Below are positions 9,688 through 27,493 of a stretch of 46,084 nucleotides of DNA, in pieces. The position numbers and the translations under genes are program-made. This DNA comes from Chloroflexota bacterium (GTDB taxonomy: Bacteria > Chloroflexota > Anaerolineae > Anaerolineales > VGOW01): contig VGOW01000026.1 in the NCBI GenBank assembly GCA_016875735.1, positions 1-46,084 on the forward strand. The letters are read 5' to 3'. The notes under the pieces are model-generated. The model was not told where the DNA came from, did no database searches, and saw nothing but the letters and a program-made list of their open reading frames with translations. Numbering within the stretch: position 1 is the stretch's first letter; the number at the start of each line of letters is the position of its first letter.

Positions 9688-10857
9688 CTATCTATACACA
9701 TACAATGTGTATTCATAAAGGCCATAGGAATGGTCCAACCTGACGTTTCGGCTTATTTCTGACAGGCAGTAACCAAGCATCTCTGCCGGATGCTTATAGT
9801 AAAGGTTTGGAGCAAAGAAATTAACATAGGTTGACATGACATTGAAGGCAATGCCTTTACTACATAAGTCAAACATCCTCCTTATTAGCCTTTTTGCAAA
9901 TCCATCCATATCCAACAGGCTCGCGCCCAGTTTCTGAGTCAATATTCCATTACAAACGATAAACTCAAATCTCCGTTCGTCAAAGCCGTATTGCATAAAA
10001 TCGCCCTCAATAAATTCGCCGTTCTCCAAATGCTGTCGCGCCCAATGAATCATGTTAGAGGCCACATCAATGCCTGTATACTGTAATTTAAATCCTTTTT
10101 GCTGCGCATAGGCCAACAACCCTCCATAGCCGCACCCGACATCTAGCAATGTTATTGGTTTGCCAATATCAAGCAAGTCCCGAGCCAGCACCGCCAACAT
10201 TTTGTCGTAACGCAAGCGCACATCTTCGTCTTTGCTCCAATCTACCCCTTTGGACGTTGCGCCAAATTCAGCAAATTTCTGTGAATAATGGGTCTTCATC
10301 TCTTGAGTTATCGGACTCGATCGATCAGGTTCAGTAAACAATGGCCACCTCCGATCCTTATCAGAAATATCCCTCTCGGCCTCAGGCCAAACAATCCCAA
10401 AAGCGGGATCGTCCCAACGTACACCGCGCGCCGCTTCAGGGTGATAAAACTCGCTCATCTGGTAAAACACTTCGGTGTTATCTACCAGGGTTTGAAAGCC
10501 ATGCGCGAAACTTTCAGGGATGTAAAGAGCGCGGCGGTTTTCGGCAGTCAGCTCCACGGCCAGCCAGTGCTTGAATGTTTCAGAATCGGGGCGCAGATCA
10601 ATAACGACATCGTAAATTGCGCCTCTCGTGCAACGCACCAGTTTGGCTTCTTCGTATGGCGCAATTTGATAATGCATCCCGCGCAACGTTCCAGCTTTTT
10701 TATTGAACGAGATGTTACACTGCGCCAAGCGCGGGTTCAAACCGTGGGCCGCAAATTCGTCCCGGCACCACGTCCGGGCAAAAAAGCCGCGCTCATCCGT
10801 CAGCAGCTCCGGCTCGACGATGAACACGCCAGACAGCTTAGTCTTGCGGAAGATCAT
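9688..10857 (-). CDS. RmlC-like dTDP-sugar 3,5-epimerase fused to a SAM methyltransferase
   Basis: A single uninterrupted 389-residue frame. Residues 1 to about 180 are an RmlC cupin: VEPELLTDERGFFARTW, LRGMHYQ with the catalytic His, YVVIDLRPDS-type strand, and IPESFAHGFQTL. Residues from about 190 on form a class I methyltransferase with LLDVGCGYGGLLAYAQ and FEFIVCNGILTQ. RmlC normally ends near residue 180-190, so the second domain is an added enzyme. The two halves differ in base composition: the RmlC half is GC-richer, the methyltransferase half AT-rich like the following genes. Possible functions are sugar epimerisation followed by methylation in one polypeptide. A sequencing-masked separation is possible; the Met of EMKTHYSQKF could be an internal start. 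No RmlA/B/D genes are in the window. Confidence 0.8.
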   Translation of the reverse strand: MIFRKTKLSGVFIVEPELLTDERGFFARTWCRDEFAAHGLNPRLAQCNISFNKKAGTLRGMHYQIAPYEEAKLVRCTRGAIYDVVIDLRPDSETFKHWLAVELTAENRRALYIPESFAHGFQTLVDNTEVFYQMSEFYHPEAARGVRWDDPAFGIVWPEAERDISDKDRRWPLFTEPDRSSPITQEMKTHYSQKFAEFGATSKGVDWSKDEDVRLRYDKMLAVLARDLLDIGKPITLLDVGCGYGGLLAYAQQKGFKLQYTGIDVASNMIHWARQHLENGEFIEGDFMQYGFDERRFEFIVCNGILTQKLGASLLDMDGFAKRLIRRMFDLCSKGIAFNVMSTYVNFFAPNLYYKHPAEMLGYCLSEISRNVRLDHSYGLYEYTLYVYR

Positions 10858-14227: not shown

Positions 14228-14525
14228 TCACACTGTCCTAAATTGTTGCCAGCCGTGCAACGTATACCCCGCTCCGCGCAGGTTCATCGTCAAAGCTGCT
14301 TTCAGTTGGCACAAACACGGATGAGGCAACTGCCGGAAGGAATGGGTTGCTGCGGAGGCGATAGATGCGGTCTTCTTTGATAGACGACTTTTGCAACGGT
14401 ATTGTACCATACGCCCATGCTACTCACCCGAAGGGATTATAATCGCGCATATGGCAGGCACACCATTGGGCGAAATCCGTGCTCGTTCAGTCTTGCAAAG
14501 ATTGCGAGACTCCGAGGAGTTTTTC
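14228..14525. other. Intergenic region between wzm and the nucleotidyltransferase gene
   Basis: This 298-bp divergent spacer must carry the promoter of the long polysaccharide operon on the minus strand, but I see no convincing -35/-10 pair there. On the plus strand a TATAAT at 14438-14443 is followed 7 nt later by an ATG at 14451. No repeat or RNA gene was recognised. Confidence 0.5.
14438..14443 (+). promoter_or_regulatory. -10 box of the nucleotidyltransferase gene
   Basis: A perfect TATAAT, 7 nt before an in-frame ATG at 14451. If used, transcription would begin at about the A of that ATG (leaderless, giving a product 25 residues longer) or leave a 75-nt leader before the SD-preceded ATG at 14526. 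No good -35 box is visible. Confidence 0.5.
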
Positions 14526-15089
14526 ATGAAACAAGGGCAGGTTTTCAGCACATTGGAACGACTCGCCCTCCGCCTGAAAGAGGAGAGTATTCCTTATGCT
14601 CTCGTAGGCGGCTTGGCCCTCAACCTGCACGACTACGAGCGTATGACTCGCGACATTGACATATTGATGACACCTCAAGCCCTTGAGAAATTCATTGAGC
14701 GCTGTGTTGGCTTAGGCTATGTCCAAGCATTTCACGGCGCTCGCAAGTCTTTTCACGATACGGCCACGCAGACCCTCATTGAGATTTTGGTCACTGGCGA
14801 ATACCCTGGTGACGGCAAACCCAAGCCCGTCTCGTTCCCCGACCCGGAAGCGTCCTCCATCGAAATCGATGGCATTCGGGTCATCACCCTCGAAAAGTTG
14901 ATCGAGCTGAAATTGGCTTCCGGCCTTTCCGCCTCTCATCGGCTACGCGACTTGGCCGACGCTCAAGACCTCATCGTCATCCATCACCTCCCCCCAGAAT
15001 TCGCCGACAAGCTCGACCCCAGCGTGCGCGCTGAATATATGCGGCTGTGGGAAGGCGCGCAGACTGCCCCGCCTCAATCGGCTCGGTAA
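14526..15089 (+). CDS. DUF6036/AbiEii-like nucleotidyltransferase
   Basis: A 187-residue protein from the ATG at 14526, chosen because GAGGAG lies 6 nt before it; the in-frame ATG at 14451 behind a TATAAT is the alternative. The motif YALVGGLALNLHD followed by RMTRDIDILM gives the GG (residues 28-29) and two Asp (43 and 45) of the pol-beta nucleotidyltransferase active site. The rest, with LEKLIELKLASGLS and HRLRDLADAQDL, matches the small nucleotidyltransferase proteins that include antitoxin/AbiEii-like members. No partner HEPN or AbiEi-type gene sits next to it, so it looks like an orphan; its substrate is unknown. Confidence 0.75.
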   Translation: MKQGQVFSTLERLALRLKEESIPYALVGGLALNLHDYERMTRDIDILMTPQALEKFIERCVGLGYVQAFHGARKSFHDTATQTLIEILVTGEYPGDGKPKPVSFPDPEASSIEIDGIRVITLEKLIELKLASGLSASHRLRDLADAQDLIVIHHLPPEFADKLDPSVRAEYMRLWEGAQTAPPQSAR

Positions 15090-15146: not shown

Positions 15147-15185
15147 AGCACAAATATGATCAATGTCATATTTCCTATTTGTGCT
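15147..15185. repeat. Outer inverted repeat upstream of nosZ
   Basis: Ten-base perfect arms: AGCACAAATA at 15147-15156 and TATTTGTGCT at 15176-15185, enclosing 19 bp. It partly overlaps the 22-bp Crp-type operator. It could be a second overlapping site or a cruciform in the nosZ control region. Confidence 0.7.
15152..15173. promoter_or_regulatory. Crp/Fnr-family operator of nosZ (candidate)
   Basis: A perfect palindrome with 8-base arms, AAATATGA at 15152-15159 and TCATATTT at 15166-15173, around a 6-base core. The TATGA-N6-TCATA form is the spacing bound by Crp/Fnr/Dnr dimers. Its centre (15162.5) lies about 41 bp before the start site predicted from the TAACAA box at 15191-15196, the class II activator position. 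The regulator encoded at 22627-21929 is the obvious candidate partner. Confidence 0.65.
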
Positions 15186-15190
15186 TTGTG

Positions 15191-15196
15191 TAACAA
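15191..15196 (+). promoter_or_regulatory. Candidate -10 box of nosZ
   Basis: TAACAA (followed by T) fits the TAnnnT pattern loosely. No -35 box is seen, as expected for a promoter whose activator sits at about -41. The predicted start near 15203-15204 leaves a leader of about 66 nt to the nosZ ATG. Confidence 0.4.
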
Positions 15197-15269
15197 TCCG
15201 GACAAGTCTGGGCGCCAAATCAGACACCGTTATCCATTTCCCGAAAACCCAATTCTAAGGAGGCTTCCA

Positions 15270-17264
15270 ATGAAAAAACTGATTCCCTTACTGGTTGTGC
15301 TAACCGTCGTGTTAGCTGCCTGCGGCGGCTCCACCCCCACCCCTGCCGCCACCGGCGGCGGCGGCCTGCCCGCCGAGGCCGCCGCTGTCGCCGCTGAACG
15401 CGGCCTCACGCAGGACGACATCTATGCCGCCCTCAAAACCTACACCCCCTCCGGCCAACTCGATCCCTACATCATGTTCTCATCGGGCGGGCAGGGCGGG
15501 CAGGTGCTGGTCATCGGCGTGCCCTCCATGCGCATCCTCAAACTCATCGCCGTGTTCACCCCCGAGTCGTGGCAGGGCTACGGCTACGGCGGCTCGGGCG
15601 ATGAAACGCTGGCCGGCGGCTTCATGCCCAACGGCGACGAGATCAAATGGGGCGACACCCATCACCCCAACCTCTCCGAAACGGGCGGCGAGTACGATGG
15701 CGAGTTCCTTTTCATCAATGACAAAGCCAATGCCCGGTTGGCAGTGATTGACTTGCGCGACTTCGAGACGAAGCAGTTGATCAAGAACCCCAACGCCATC
15801 AGCGATCACGGCGGCGCGTTTGTCACCCCCAACACCGAATACGTCATCGAAGGCCCGCAGTACGCCACCCCCATCGGCTGGGAATATGCGACGCTCGATG
15901 AATACCAAGCCAAGTATCGCGGCCTGATCACCTTCTGGAAGTTCGACCGCGCCAAGGGCCGCGTGGATGAATCGAAGTCCTTCCAGATCGAACTGCCGCC
16001 CTACTGGCAAGACCTGTGCGACGCGGGCAAAGGCCCCAGCGAAGGCTGGTTCTTCTGCAACTCGATCAACAGTGAAATGGCGACTGGCGGCATCGAGTCC
16101 GGCGGCGAACCGTTCGAGGCTGGCACCACCAAGAACGACACCGACTACCTGCACATCTTCAATTGGAAGAAGGCTGAAGAAGTGGCCAACTCCGGCGGCG
16201 CCGAAGAGATCAACGGCATCAAAGTCATCCGCCTCGAAACCGCCATCGCCGAGGGCATCCTCTACTTCTCCCCCGAACCCAAGAGCCCGCACGGCTCGGA
16301 TGTGACCCCGGGCGGCGAGTTCATCGTCGTCGGCGGCAAGCTCGACCCGCACGTCACCGTTTACTCCTTCCAGAAGATTCAAGACGCCATTGCGGCCGGC
16401 GGCCTCGACACCGACACCTACGGCGTGCCGGTGATCCCGCTGGACAAAGCGATGGAAGCGCAAGTTGAAATCGGCCTCGGCCCGCTCCACACCGTCTTCG
16501 ACGATAAGGGCTACGCCTACACCTCCGTCTTCCTCGACTCGGTGGTGGCCCGCTGGACGCTCGGCGGCCCGTACGACGACAAGAACCCCGAAGAGGGCTG
16601 GACGCTCGTTCAGAAACTGCCCGTGCAGTACAACATCGGCCACATCGCCGCCGCCGAAGGCGACACCGCCTCCCCCGACGGCAACTACGTCGTGGCCCTC
16701 AACAAGTGGAGCATCGATCGCTTTGCCAATGTCGGTCCGCTCCTCCCGCAAAACTTCCAACTGGTGGACATCACCAAGACCGGCGACCAGATGAAAGTGA
16801 TCTACGACATGCCCATTGGCATGGCCGAGCCGCATTACGCTCAGATCATCAAGGCCGACAAACTCAAGCCGTTCGAGATCTATCCTGAGATCGGCTGGAA
16901 CCCTGAGACGATGAGCGTCGATCCCAATGCCGTCACCGACCCGGCCAACGCCCGCGTCGAGCGCAACGGCAGCAATGTCGAAATCTGGTCCACCGTCGTC
17001 CGCTCACACTTCACGCCGGAACACGTGGAGATTGAAGAAGGCGATCGCGTCGTTTGGCACTTCACCAGCCTCGAGCGCACCCGCGACGCCACACACGGTT
17101 TCGCCCTGGGCGGCTATAATATCAACCTGAGCCTTGAGCCCGGCGAGACTCAGACCATCGAGTTCGACGCCAACAAGTCCGGCACCTTTGTGTTCTACTG
17201 CACCGAGTTCTGCTCGGCCCTGCACCTTGAGATGCTTGGCTACTTCCTCGTAGAGCCGAAGTAA
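15270..17264 (+). CDS. nosZ: Nitrous-oxide reductase NosZ (clade II-like, lipoprotein signal)
   Basis: A 664-residue enzyme reducing N2O to N2 outside the cytoplasmic membrane. The ATG at 15270 is chosen because AAGGAGG lies 6 nt upstream. The N-terminus is a lipoprotein signal: LLVVLTVVLAAC with the lipobox Cys at 18, and no twin-arginine motif, as in Sec-dependent clade II enzymes. The beta-propeller carries the CuZ His motifs: GDTHHPNLSETGGEYDG (HH at 131-132), SDHGGAFVTP, SPHGSDVTPGG, GPLHTVFDD, NIGHIAAAEG and AEPHY. The C-terminal cupredoxin has a His in DATHGFALGG and the CuA motif YCTEFCSALHLEM (Cys 644 and 648, His 652, Met 655). All expected copper ligands appear present. It is followed by the maturation genes, and a GC-rich hairpin separates it from the next gene. 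Confidence 0.97.
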   Translation: MKKLIPLLVVLTVVLAACGGSTPTPAATGGGGLPAEAAAVAAERGLTQDDIYAALKTYTPSGQLDPYIMFSSGGQGGQVLVIGVPSMRILKLIAVFTPESWQGYGYGGSGDETLAGGFMPNGDEIKWGDTHHPNLSETGGEYDGEFLFINDKANARLAVIDLRDFETKQLIKNPNAISDHGGAFVTPNTEYVIEGPQYATPIGWEYATLDEYQAKYRGLITFWKFDRAKGRVDESKSFQIELPPYWQDLCDAGKGPSEGWFFCNSINSEMATGGIESGGEPFEAGTTKNDTDYLHIFNWKKAEEVANSGGAEEINGIKVIRLETAIAEGILYFSPEPKSPHGSDVTPGGEFIVVGGKLDPHVTVYSFQKIQDAIAAGGLDTDTYGVPVIPLDKAMEAQVEIGLGPLHTVFDDKGYAYTSVFLDSVVARWTLGGPYDDKNPEEGWTLVQKLPVQYNIGHIAAAEGDTASPDGNYVVALNKWSIDRFANVGPLLPQNFQLVDITKTGDQMKVIYDMPIGMAEPHYAQIIKADKLKPFEIYPEIGWNPETMSVDPNAVTDPANARVERNGSNVEIWSTVVRSHFTPEHVEIEEGDRVVWHFTSLERTRDATHGFALGGYNINLSLEPGETQTIEFDANKSGTFVFYCTEFCSALHLEMLGYFLVEPK

Positions 17265-17351: not shown

Positions 17352-18035
17352 ATGCAATCCTTTCTCGATCCGGATGTGAAAGTCCTTCTCCCCGATGGCA
17401 GCACCCGCCGCCTCACCGACTACCTCCTGCCCAGCGCCCTGCTCATGCTCTCCGCGCTGCTGCTGATGATCTCCATGTTCCTGCCCTATTGGAGTATGCG
17501 CATGGACGCGCCTCAATACCCCAAAGGTTTGAAAGTGGATGTGTACATCAACCGGCTCGACGGCGATGTGGACGAGATCGACGCGCTCAATCACTATCTC
17601 GGCATGCCCAAACTCGACGAGGGCGGGCGCTTCGAGCGCTCCATCTCTTTCATCTCCATCATCGCTTTTGGCTTCCTATTGATGGCCGGTGTGTTCGTCC
17701 ACAACCAACTGGCGGGTCTGCTCGCCCTTCCAGCCTTGGGCTTCCCCGTCGTCTTCATCGCCGACCTGTGGTGGATACTCTATCAGTACGGCCACAGCAT
17801 CGATCCCAAGTCGGCGCTCGGCGGCGCCATTGAGCCATTCACCCCGCCCGTCCTCGGGCCCGGAGTCGTCGGCCAGTTCGGCACCGTGGCCAGTTTTGAG
17901 CCCGGCTTCTACCTCTCCCTCCTCGCCGTATTGGTGATGCTGATCGCCCTGTGGTTCCATCGCGCCGCCTACAAACCCATCGTGGACGCGCGCAAAAAGT
18001 TGGCCGCCTCCGCCGCGCAGCCCCCTCGCGCATGA
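17352..18035 (+). CDS. NosB-like integral membrane protein of the nos cluster
   Basis: A 227-residue protein with about four membrane segments: LLPSALLMLSALLLMISMFLP near residue 28, ISFISIIAFGFLLMAGVF near 100, LLALPALGFPVVFIADLWWILY near 125, and FYLSLLAVLVMLIALWF near 190. Between the first two is an outside loop with YPKGLKVDVYINRLDGDV and ALNHYLGMPKLDEGG, a stretch I associate with membrane proteins next to clade II nosZ genes (NosB-type, function unknown). His and Met residues in NHYLGMPK could bind copper or contact NosZ (inference). The ATG at 17352 is preferred to 17331; neither has a strong SD. The stop overlaps the next start as ATGA at 18032-18035. Confidence 0.65.
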   Translation: MQSFLDPDVKVLLPDGSTRRLTDYLLPSALLMLSALLLMISMFLPYWSMRMDAPQYPKGLKVDVYINRLDGDVDEIDALNHYLGMPKLDEGGRFERSISFISIIAFGFLLMAGVFVHNQLAGLLALPALGFPVVFIADLWWILYQYGHSIDPKSALGGAIEPFTPPVLGPGVVGQFGTVASFEPGFYLSLLAVLVMLIALWFHRAAYKPIVDARKKLAASAAQPPRA

Positions 18036-20368
18036 ACCTTCGACTGCTCGCCGCGGGGATGTTGATTGCGCTGGCGGCGGCTCAACCCACCCTCGCCCAA
18101 CCGCTCTCGCCCAACCGCCTCACCGTCTCCCCCACCGGCCCCTACACGACCATCGAAGCCGCGCTGGCCGACGCCGCCGACGGCGACGCCATCGAAGTGC
18201 GCGGCGGAATCTATCCGACCCTCGTCGTCGAAAAATCGGTGACGCTCGAAGGCGTGGATTGGCCGGTGATTAACGGAGGCGGCGAGGGCACGGTTGTCAC
18301 CCTCAACGCCCCGAACATCGTCTTTCGCGGCTTCGAAGTCCGCAACAGCGGCATCGAGCCGGATCGCGATCACTCCGGCATCACCCTCACCGCGCCGGGC
18401 ATCACTGCCGAAAACAACCGCCTGCGCGAAGTGCTGTTCGGCATCTTCGTCGCCAAAGCCCACAACGCCGTCGTGCGCGGCAACGACATCTCCAGCAAAT
18501 CGCAATTCAACATCGGGCGCAAAGGCGACGCCATTCGGCTGTGGTTCAGCAAAGGCGTCACCGTCGAAAACAATCACGTTCACGACGCCCGCGATCTGGT
18601 GATGTGGTATTCCGAAGAAGTGATCGTGCGCGACAATGTTTTCGAGAACGGGCGCTACGGCATCCACCTCATGTATTGCGACGGCGCGCAGATCGAACGC
18701 AACCGCGTGCTCAACAACTCGGTTGGGCTGTTCGTCATGTATTCCAAAAACGTCGCCCTGCGCGATAACGACATTCGCGGACAGCGCGGCCCCAGCGGCT
18801 ACGCGCTCGGCTTCAAAGACGCCGACTTCGTCGAAGTCACCGGCAACGTGATCGTGGACAATCGCGCCGGAGTGTTCATGGATGGCACGCCGTTCAGCCC
18901 GCAGGGGTACGGCCTCTTCAGAGACAACATCTTCGCCTTCAACGACGTGGGCGCGATTCTCCTCACCGCCGTTCGCGGCAACACCTTCGAGGGCAACACC
19001 TTTTGGGAGAACGTCGAACAAATGGCGATACAGGGCGGCGGCCAAACCGGAGAGAACGTGTGGCGCGGAAATTACTGGAGCGACTACACCGGCTTCGACG
19101 CCGACTCCGATGGCTACGGCGACACGCCCTATCGCTCCGAGCGATTCTTCGAAAACCTCACCGACCGCGAGCCGATGCTTCGCGCCATCCTCTACAGCCC
19201 CGCCGCGCAAACCATCGAGTTCGCCGCCTCATCGTTTCCCATCGTCAAGCCTCAACCCAAATTCGTGGACGAGACTCCGATGATGTCGCCCCGCGCCATT
19301 CCGCCCTCGGCCCTCGCCCCCCAAGAATCGCCCGCGCCCATGGCCCTGCTGGGACTCGGACTGCTGGCGGCGGGCGTGGCCTGCGGCGGGCTGGCCTTTA
19401 TGAACCGCAAAGCGCGCGAGAGCCGCAAAGACTCTTTGCCCTCTCCACGCTCTCTGCGGTTGAATGAGTCAATGGCAGTCAACACTCCACTGGAAACGGC
19501 GGTGCGCGTCGAAAATTTAGTCAAACGCTACGGCAAAGCGGCCGCCCTCAACGGCGTCTCGTTCGAGGCGCGCGCTGGAGAGTCGCTGGCCTTGTGGGGC
19601 GAAAACGGCGCGGGCAAAACCACGCTCATCAAAGCCCTGCTCGGCCTCATCGACTATGAGGGCCGCGCAGAGATCGAAGGCAACGACACGCGCAGAAACG
19701 GCAAAGCCGCCCGCCGGTGCATCGGCTACGTTCCACAAGAAGCGATCTTTTACGATATGACCGCGCAAGCCACAATGGAATTTTATGCGCGGCTCAAAAA
19801 AGTGGATGTTGGCCGAATCTCCGCCCTGCTCGAAAAACTGGGGCTGGCCGAGCACGCCCGCAAACCCGTGCCGGCCCTCTCTGGCGGACTCAAACAGCGG
19901 CTCGCGCTCGCCGTGGCCCTCCTCGCCGACCCGCCCGTGCTTCTGCTCGACGAACCCACCGCCAACCTCGACGCCAAAGCGCGAAGCGATTATCTCGCCC
20001 TCCTCGCCGCGCTCCGCAAAGAAAAGAGAACCATCCTTTTCGCCTCGCACCGCATCGAAGAAGTGGAAACCCTCGCCGACCGGGTGTTGGTGATGGAATC
20101 CGGTCGGGTAATCGAGACGCTCACCCCCGGCGAAGTCCGTTTGCGACTCGCCCCCCACGCCACACTCACGCTCTGGGTGCCCGAAAGCGATCGTCAGCGA
20201 GCCGTCGCCGTGTTCGAGCGGCAAGGCTGGTGCGCGCATCTCAACGGGCGCGGCACGGTGGTCGTTTACGTCGAAGCCGAGCAAAAACTTCAGCCCCTCA
20301 CCCGCCTCGCCGAAGAGGGCATCGTTGTGAAAGACTTCGAGATGGAACGAGGCCGATTATGGAACTGA
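18032..20368 (+). CDS. nosDF: NosD-NosF fusion: beta-helix copper-site maturation protein joined to ABC ATPase
   Basis: One 778-residue frame holds two proteins that are normally separate. Residues 1 to about 430 are NosD: signal peptide (LLAAGMLIALAAAQPTLAQ) and a right-handed beta-helix with CASH repeats (GPYTTIEAALADAADGD, GIHLMYCDGAQIERNRV, WRGNYWSDYTGFDADSDGYGD), which acts outside the membrane in CuZ assembly. Residues about 435-458 are a membrane segment (APMALLGLGLLAAGVACGG). Residues about 481-778 are NosF, a cytoplasmic ABC ATPase with Walker A GENGAGKTT (523-531), signature LSGGLKQR (616) and Walker B VLLLDEPTANLD. The internal ATG at 19472 has no SD. The start ATG overlaps the previous stop (ATGA). 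The topology (outside helix, one membrane pass, inside ATPase) is self-consistent with a true fusion. The linker DNA resembles the local intergenic repeat. Confidence 0.93.
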   Translation: MNLRLLAAGMLIALAAAQPTLAQPLSPNRLTVSPTGPYTTIEAALADAADGDAIEVRGGIYPTLVVEKSVTLEGVDWPVINGGGEGTVVTLNAPNIVFRGFEVRNSGIEPDRDHSGITLTAPGITAENNRLREVLFGIFVAKAHNAVVRGNDISSKSQFNIGRKGDAIRLWFSKGVTVENNHVHDARDLVMWYSEEVIVRDNVFENGRYGIHLMYCDGAQIERNRVLNNSVGLFVMYSKNVALRDNDIRGQRGPSGYALGFKDADFVEVTGNVIVDNRAGVFMDGTPFSPQGYGLFRDNIFAFNDVGAILLTAVRGNTFEGNTFWENVEQMAIQGGGQTGENVWRGNYWSDYTGFDADSDGYGDTPYRSERFFENLTDREPMLRAILYSPAAQTIEFAASSFPIVKPQPKFVDETPMMSPRAIPPSALAPQESPAPMALLGLGLLAAGVACGGLAFMNRKARESRKDSLPSPRSLRLNESMAVNTPLETAVRVENLVKRYGKAAALNGVSFEARAGESLALWGENGAGKTTLIKALLGLIDYEGRAEIEGNDTRRNGKAARRCIGYVPQEAIFYDMTAQATMEFYARLKKVDVGRISALLEKLGLAEHARKPVPALSGGLKQRLALAVALLADPPVLLLDEPTANLDAKARSDYLALLAALRKEKRTILFASHRIEEVETLADRVLVMESGRVIETLTPGEVRLRLAPHATLTLWVPESDRQRAVAVFERQGWCAHLNGRGTVVVYVEAEQKLQPLTRLAEEGIVVKDFEMERGRLWN

Positions 20369-21186
20369 CACTGTTATGGACGATTGCCCTGCGCGAACTG
20401 CGCGAAGCCCTGCGCAACAAATGGCTTGCCTTTTACGCGGTGGGGTTTGCCGCGCTGGCCTATGCCCTTTCGCAAGCCAGCGTCGCATCCTCCGGCTACA
20501 GCGGGTTGGGAGGCTTTGGGCGCACCGCCGCCAGCCTCATCAACGCCCTGCTGTTGTTTGTGCCGCTGCTCGGACTCAGTGTGGGCGCGGGGGCGCTCGC
20601 CGGAGATCGTGAGCGCGGGACTCTGCTGTATCTCCTCGCCCAGCCGGTGAATCGCGCCGAAGTCTTTTTCGGAAAAGCGATCGGCTCCGGAATGGCCGTC
20701 ACCGCCGCATTGGCCGTCGGCTTCGGGTTGGCCGCCCTCACCCTCGCCTCGGCCAGCGAAGGCGACGCCTTCACCTACCTCGCCCTCGCCGGATACACCG
20801 TTCTGCTGGCCCTCGCCTCGATGGGGCTGGGCTTCATCATCAGCGCCCTCACCCGCAAAGGCGCCACCGCCATGGGCGCATCGCTGCTGCTGTGGCTCGG
20901 CCTCGTCTTCTTCGGCGACATCGGCCTCGTGGGCGCCACCCTCACCCTGCGCCCCACCCCAACCGTTCTGCTGGGGATGTTGCTCATCAACCCACTACAA
21001 GTATTCAAACTGGGCGCGATCTACAGCCTGCGCGCCACACTCGACACGCTCGGCGCAGCGGGGCAATTCGCCCTCTACAAATTCGGAGACGCCCTGCCCG
21101 CGCTGTTGCTGGGCCTGCTCGCCGGATGGATCGCGCTGTCGTTCGGCGCGGCCTTTGCCCTCTTCAGCCGCCGCGGCGATCTATGA
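20359..21186 (+). CDS. nosY: NosY, ABC-2 type permease of the nos maturation system
   Basis: A 275-residue membrane protein with about six segments and the NosY hallmarks: an N-terminal IALRELREALRNKWLAFYAVGF, GALAGDRERGTLLYLLAQPVNRAEVFFGKAIG near residue 80, and a C-terminal NPLQVFKLGAIYSLRATLDTLG. It pairs with NosF to supply the NosZ active site, possibly by sulfur delivery to CuZ (the family role is known in outline only). The ATG at 20359 overlaps the end of nosDF by 10 nt, and its stop overlaps nosL as ATGA at 21183-21186. Confidence 0.93.
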   Translation: MELTLLWTIALRELREALRNKWLAFYAVGFAALAYALSQASVASSGYSGLGGFGRTAASLINALLLFVPLLGLSVGAGALAGDRERGTLLYLLAQPVNRAEVFFGKAIGSGMAVTAALAVGFGLAALTLASASEGDAFTYLALAGYTVLLALASMGLGFIISALTRKGATAMGASLLLWLGLVFFGDIGLVGATLTLRPTPTVLLGMLLINPLQVFKLGAIYSLRATLDTLGAAGQFALYKFGDALPALLLGLLAGWIALSFGAAFALFSRRGDL

Positions 21187-21644
21187 AACCCAATCTATTC
21201 TTCTGCCTGCTTGCCTTTTGCCTCACGCTGGCCGCCTGCGCCCAACAGCCCGCCGAGCCTCAACCGCCGGAGATCATCTATGGGCAAGACTTGTGCGACA
21301 ACTGCGGCATGATCATCAGCGAAGCCAAATACGCCGCCGCCACCCTGCTCGTCGAAGGCGGATCGCACAAATTCGACGACATCTCTGACATGGTGATCTA
21401 TCACCTCGATCACCCCAACGAAGTGGTGAAGGCGTGGTTCGTGCACGACTACAACAGCGAAGCATGGATCCGGGGGGAGACCGCCACTTACGTGAGAGGC
21501 GACATCAACACACCGATGGGTGGGGGCATCGTTGCCTTCGAGAACAAAGCCGAGGCCGAATCAGTCGCCGCCGAAGTCAATGGCAAAGTGATGAACTTCG
21601 ACGAAATGCGCGTCGAGGTTCATGTCGTCATCCACGGCCAATGA
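21183..21644 (+). CDS. nosL: NosL copper-binding lipoprotein
   Basis: A 153-residue protein with a lipoprotein signal (CLLAFCLTLAAC, lipobox Cys near 19) and the NosL copper site GQDLCDNCGMIIS (CxxCGM). It continues with FDDISDMVIYHLDHP and WFVHDYNSEAWI, typical of the family. NosL delivers Cu(I) to NosD/apo-NosZ outside the membrane. It is translationally coupled to nosY through ATGA. Confidence 0.94.
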   Translation: MKPNLFFCLLAFCLTLAACAQQPAEPQPPEIIYGQDLCDNCGMIISEAKYAAATLLVEGGSHKFDDISDMVIYHLDHPNEVVKAWFVHDYNSEAWIRGETATYVRGDINTPMGGGIVAFENKAEAESVAAEVNGKVMNFDEMRVEVHVVIHGQ

Positions 21645-26783: not shown

Positions 26784-27413
26784 TCAGTTTTCGTAGAGGA
26801 GGCGGAACGCAGATTTTGCGCCGGGCGGAATAGCGGCGATGGGCTCGAATCGCAAGCCTTCGATGCTTTTCGCTTCTTCGGCCACTGCGTCGGTGACGAG
26901 AATATCTCCGGCTTTGGCTGTGTCTTCGCCGAGTTTGCTGGCCGCGTTCACTTGCGGGCCGAACACGTCGGTGTCGCCGATGCGCAACATCAAGCCGTAG
27001 CCGATGCCCACGCCGAGGAGAATCTGTTCGGTTTCGGGTTTGCTCGCGTTGTAGCCTTTGAGCACGCCCATCATTTGAACGGCGCACTCGATGGCTTTGC
27101 TGGCGCGGCGGAAGATGACCAGCATGCTGTCGCCGTCCATCTTCAGCAAAATGCCGTCGTGATCGTCAATGCACGGCACGAGCAGCCGTTGCGACTCGTA
27201 AATGGTTTGCAGAAAGTGAATGATGCCGTATTCGGCGGCGCGGCGCGAGAACCCGGCCAGGTCGGTGAACATGATCGCCCACGTCTCGCCGAACAAATCC
27301 CAGATGCGGCTGTCGATCTCTTCTTTGTTCGCGCCGGGCTGCAATCGCTCGGCGATGAGATTCTCCAGCCGGTCTTGCGATGCGCTGATGCCGACTTGCA
27401 AAACGAAAGGCAT
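26784..27413 (-). CDS. Class III adenylate/guanylate cyclase-domain protein
   Basis: A 209-residue protein from the ATG at 27413, preceded by AAAGGA at 8 nt. It is essentially a short N-terminal helix plus one cyclase homology domain. FTDLAGFSRRA carries the first metal Asp, LLKMDGDSMLVIF the substrate Lys and second Asp, and GVGIGYGLMLRIGDTDVFGPQVNAASKL the purine and transition-state region. The usual N-x3-R of active enzymes reads NAASK here, so the transition-state Arg is Lys. It may be a weak cyclase or a nucleotide sensor. There is no membrane or HAMP domain. It is followed at once by the YfhO gene. Confidence 0.8.
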   Translation of the reverse strand: MPFVLQVGISASQDRLENLIAERLQPGANKEEIDSRIWDLFGETWAIMFTDLAGFSRRAAEYGIIHFLQTIYESQRLLVPCIDDHDGILLKMDGDSMLVIFRRASKAIECAVQMMGVLKGYNASKPETEQILLGVGIGYGLMLRIGDTDVFGPQVNAASKLGEDTAKAGDILVTDAVAEEAKSIEGLRFEPIAAIPPGAKSAFRLLYEN

Positions 27414-27493
27414 GGGATGAGTCCTTTCTGTGAGTAGTGCTTGTATCTTACGCCGATCACTCGCGCCTCGCAACCGCCCCTCACCCATTGCGG

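Follow-up and report, generated by a model that had tools for sequence, protein, structure and literature searches.

A NosD-membrane-NosF fusion gene in a Chloroflexota nos operon and its recurrence among related loci

Here we report that a single gene encodes NosD, a membrane anchor and NosF in a Chloroflexota bacterium (contig VGOW01000026.1, analysed as one window of 46,084 nucleotides). The frame at 18032-20368 on the forward strand is a true NosD-membrane-NosF fusion gene; it lies within a nos operon, both of its domains are complete and the arrangement is conserved among relatives. NosD and NosF belong to the machinery by which nitrous oxide reductase receives its copper; they are normally encoded by separate genes and occupy opposite sides of the membrane. 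Taken as a whole, the observations are most likely explained by an anchored NosD that was joined to nosF in an ordinary clade II-type operon, the product serving in the usual NosDFY machine as a 2:2:2 assembly.

Results

A single frame encodes NosD, a membrane helix and NosF

Translation of 18032-20368 gave 778 residues without a stop, in the order signal peptide, complete NosD beta-helix, one membrane helix, disordered linker and complete NosF ATPase. The gene and its parts are as follows.

18032..20368, + strand: nosDF fusion gene; single open frame matching TIGR04247 and ABC_tran, in a layout common to 50 of 104 related loci
18032..18100, + strand: Sec-type signal peptide, residues 1-23, MNLRLLAAGMLIALAAAQPTLAQ; read from the sequence, with a putative cleavage site
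18149..19309, + strand: NosD beta-helix domain, residues 40-426; matches Pseudomonas NosD 7o0y_A
19334..19417, + strand: predicted transmembrane helix, residues 435-462, N-out/C-in; positive charges follow the helix
19418..19492, + strand: cytoplasmic linker, residues 463-487; pLDDT <50, variable among relatives
19472..19474, + strand: in-frame internal ATG, residue 481, candidate NosF start with weak Shine-Dalgarno pairing (-2.4 kcal/mol)
19493..20365, + strand: NosF ATPase domain plus C-terminal domain, residues 488-778; motifs intact, matches NosF 7o0y_B

The NosD model TIGR04247 (NCBIfam) matched residues 41-418 at 381 bits (cut-off 300) and covered model positions 1-376 of 377, and Pfam placed NosD at residues 155-354 and ABC_tran at 506-644. 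All motifs of the NosF half are intact, namely Walker A (GENGAGKT, 523), the Q-loop (567), the LSGG signature (616), Walker B (LLLDEP, 637) and the H-loop (SHR, 672). With 37 aligned fused proteins as input, AlphaFold2 gave a model (mean pLDDT 86, pTM 0.57) that shows the beta-helix, a helix at residues 435-462, residues 462-487 at very low confidence (pLDDT <50) and then the ATPase domain. In this predicted model the NosD half superposed on residues 31-429 of Pseudomonas NosD 7o0y_A with a Z score of 44.4 and an rmsd of 2.7 over 376 aligned residues, and the NosF half aligned with NosF 7o0y_B over 291 columns (TMt 0.79). Since each half matches a solved NosDFY chain along almost its full length, we regard both as complete. 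The model match, together with the signal-peptide-like sequence, suggests that the NosD half is an exported right-handed beta-helix, and the topology would place NosD outside, the anchor in the membrane and NosF inside. The uninterrupted frame and the Walker A and signature positions, which the initial annotation had proposed, were thereby confirmed, and its stated topology is supported; the membrane segment that it had placed at residues 435-458 is present, with a predicted extent of 435-462 in the AlphaFold2 model.

At the junction, a TGA-ATG in the +1 frame had been located at 19460-19466. It is present, its exact place being 19461-19463 for the TGA and 19464-19466 for the ATG. Codon-position GC bias is slight across the linker (19409-19489).

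The fusion lies within a clade II-type nos operon

The genes on either side of nosDF are as follows.

15156..17264, + strand: nosZ, encoding a Sec-dependent nitrous oxide reductase of clade II type; 836 bits with TIGR04246 (cut-off 625); the true start is probably at 15267 (MKKLIPLL)
17352..18035, + strand: nosB-like membrane protein, named nosB from its operon position; its stop and the start of nosDF overlap (ATGA)
20359..21186, + strand: nosY permease; ABC2_membrane_2, PDB 7o0y_D NosY E 1.1e-23; its start overlaps the nosDF end
21183..21644, + strand: nosL copper chaperone, lipoprotein-like; Pfam NosL 3.7e-19; overlaps nosY

The operon order is nosZ-nosB-nosDF-nosY-nosL, with overlapping stops and starts at three joints (nosB-nosDF, nosDF-nosY and nosY-nosL). 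Overlaps among nosD, nosF, nosY and nosL are known from Bradyrhizobium (PMC5582078), and among nosD, nosF and nosY from Marinobacter (PMC6152468). The features of a clade II-type cluster are all present, i.e., a Sec-dependent NosZ with nosB, nosD, nosF, nosY and nosL, as are both NosF-type features, the C-terminal domain seen in the 7o0y_B alignment and a neighbouring nosY. The order nosZ-B-D(F)-Y-L is identical in fused and separate loci elsewhere. A further NosF closely similar to that of the fusion was not found in the genome, where the best other match has 35% identity.

Other parts of the window also gave recognizable genes. Just upstream of nosZ, 14391-15089 (+ strand) encodes a nucleotidyltransferase-like protein (NTP_transf_5 / AbiEii-like). 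The frame at 9688-10857 (- strand) matches dTDP-4-dehydrorhamnose 3,5-epimerase followed by a methyltransferase domain, an apparent two-domain fusion in a region with ABC-2 transporter and polysaccharide-type genes, and 26784-27488 (- strand) encodes a small protein with a match to the adenylate/guanylate cyclase catalytic domain.

The fused frame recurs in many genomes

A spread sample of 400 Chloroflexota genomes contained a NosD match in 27; by open frame, 12 were fused and 14 were separate neighbouring genes. This sample was joined with a named genome collection (80 loci, some already present in the sample), and after removal of duplicates 104 related non-redundant loci were obtained, 50 with a fused single frame and 54 with separate adjoining genes. 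The layout, which the initial annotation had suggested looking for in Chloroflexota genomes, recurs in Chloroflexota/Thermomicrobiota and also in loci from several other phyla. Among congeners, G002 has the same single frame at 74% identity and G003 has the same frame cut by the contig end. Other families of the order carry the fused frame too, one of them as a single-frame, full-length homologue at 53% identity. Fusions were likewise seen in a single-contig Chloroflexota genome (G591), in a 4.0-Mb genome of 2 contigs that groups with a Sphaerobacter bin on the tree and is probably S. thermophilus (G717), and in the complete genome of a cultured isolate, Thermomicrobium roseum DSM 5159 (783 residues, WP_012643063.1, L160:4932-7283, NC_011961.1). 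The annotation of the T. roseum protein names NosD alone, although a NosF ATPase makes up its C-terminal half. Fused loci outside Chloroflexota are labelled Calditrichota, Planctomycetota, Omnitrophota, Armatimonadota and Tectomicrobia, mostly from metagenome bins whose labels may be wrong.

A sequencing or assembly error, by which a missing or extra base joined separate nosD and nosF genes, would be in keeping with the draft assembly of the window (150 contigs) and with the congener G001, in which nosD and nosF are separate and overlap by 4 nt (ATGA) with GAGGAG before the overlap. Single frames in two congeners, in 50 distinct loci, in a complete isolate genome and in a single-contig genome make such an error exceedingly improbable, and for the arrangement itself we rejected it on the strength of the 50 fused loci. 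Two outcomes had been named at the outset as speaking against a fusion, and neither appeared: the junction is in frame across many genomes, and the orthologues are not always two genes.

One fused frame (L081:139-2187) has no membrane-like segment between its halves, in contrast to its closest relatives, L076 and L077. Unless it reflects an assembly fault, the missing helix is a misfit with the topology, and it is either such a fault or a topology puzzle. A locus of Neisseria gonorrhoeae (L161:3803-6160, 86% coverage) was rejected as a fusion, as its nosD is broken in two frames and its nosF is separate and open; the NosD of this species has no C-terminal membrane helix. A scan of viral_contigs gave weak beta-helix matches only.

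A membrane anchor and adjoining genes are proposed preconditions of the fusion

A gene tree was built from the NosD and NosF domains joined together. Mapping the fused/separate label onto it takes 14 changes or more, of which well supported branches require 8, and a tree in which one split divides the fused loci from the separate ones was rejected (AU p 1.4e-6). The tree is unrooted, and the changes may be fusions or fissions. A transmembrane-like segment at the NosD end is found in 99 of the 104 homologues, fused or not, and carries more positive charge after than before it in 83; in most separate homologues NosF homology starts ~0-30 nt from the NosD stop. We propose that fusion recurs because these two features, the membrane anchor of NosD and a nosF start next to the nosD stop, are its preconditions. 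In these lineages NosD carries a C-terminal membrane anchor and nosD directly precedes nosF, their ends touching or overlapping. Loss of the intervening stop, e.g., by a small indel, would then join nosD to nosF at the cytoplasmic end of the anchor, the products of both genes having already been on the correct sides of the membrane before joining. The linker of the window reads TTTATGAACCGC at 19397-19408 and fused congeners keep similar letters there; the stretch may be a trace of a former nosD/nosF overlap.

The fusion bears on the stoichiometry of NosDFY

In PDB entries of the Pseudomonas NosDFY complex, NosD is present as 16 chains in 16 entries, and NosF and NosY as 34 chains each in 17 entries, which corresponds to 1:2:2. 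A NosD:NosF ratio fixed at 1:1, as put forward in the initial annotation, is a natural consequence of the fusion, but it conflicts with this solved ratio, a point that went unremarked there and is the most informative one of the finding. As the genome has no second close NosF, two NosD are expected per NosF dimer, so that the covalent fusion would predict D2F2Y2 (2:2:2) unless free NosF is also made. Whether fused lineages build a symmetric NosD2F2Y2 copper loader, with two obligatory NosD that may serve the two halves of the NosZ dimer, we judge to be an even question.

Free NosF, from internal translation or from proteolysis of the fused chain, would permit 1:2:2, and with an internal start one fused and one free NosF could rebuild the ratio of the solved complex. 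An ATG lies within 30 codons of the NosF core in 31 of the 50 fused loci, and 17 of these 31 have strong Shine-Dalgarno pairing. This proportion exceeds that of background ATGs (21%, Fisher p 7e-5) and is not clearly below that of true nosF starts (73%, p 0.14). However, such an ATG is missing from the other 19 fused loci, among them most of the Thermomicrobia group, the ATG of the window at 19472 is weakly paired, and the sites resemble leftovers of earlier start codons. We thus consider it unlikely that the fused gene also yields free NosF in this way; a conserved internal NosF start was rejected, the ATG being kept in only those 31 loci, and the 19 loci without it together with the weak candidate in the window rule out free NosF as a general requirement. 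Some lineages may still make it.

The linker is probably a flexible tether

By analogy with P. stutzeri, where NosL relays copper to NosD complexed with NosFY and NosZ receives it from NosDFY (PMC13068155), the fused chain would be exported as far as its anchor, NosD outside would take Cu(I) from NosL for NosZ, NosF inside would power NosY, and two fused chains with two NosY would form the transporter. The initial annotation had suggested that the fusion ties ATP hydrolysis mechanically to movement of the NosD helix. One covalent chain does span the membrane, in favour of such rigid coupling, but residues 462-487 are predicted to be disordered, the linker differs among relatives in both length (mostly ~40-95 residues, membrane helix included) and sequence, and close relatives are served by separate genes in the same operon order. 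Rigid coupling is therefore improbable, and the predicted disorder and variable length point to a flexible tether, not a rod or lever. The NosDFY machine probably functions in its usual way, except that each NosF dimer would necessarily bring two NosD domains.

Discussion

The components of the fused protein are known, and their covalent union across the membrane has no description in the open-access literature that we searched, in agreement with the initial annotation; most subscription journals lie outside that literature and an earlier mention is possible. The genome papers of T. roseum and S. thermophilus contain no mention of nos genes. In these groups a database entry named 'NosD' can conceal a NosF, so that surveys seeking a separate nosF may wrongly score such nos clusters as incomplete. 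NosD2F2Y2, if true, would be a working stoichiometry different from the only solved NosDFY. In the Pseudomonas structures the NosD:NosF ratio is asymmetric; the natural single-chain NosDF fixes it and offers a ready-made construct for asking whether a transporter requires one or two NosD.

Among known systems, T. roseum WP_012643063.1 has the same NosD-membrane-NosF layout and the same operon as the window, and the two proteins are ~39% identical over the matched part. The NosD proteins of Bacillus azotoformans have a C-terminal transmembrane helix (PMC3475470), as in the window, but nosF is a separate gene there; in the Gram-positive order, nosDYF, nosF does not directly follow nosD (PMC3475470). 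The NosD beta-helix, the NosF with its C-terminal domain and the NosY of P. stutzeri NosDFY (PDB 7o0y and related entries) all have counterparts in the window. The P. stutzeri NosD chain ends ~6-7 residues past the aligned domain, too soon for a membrane helix at its C terminus, and in the solved complex a single NosD accompanies two NosF and two NosY. In P. stutzeri NosD and NosF are made as separate chains, whereas in the window NosD, anchor and NosF form one chain.
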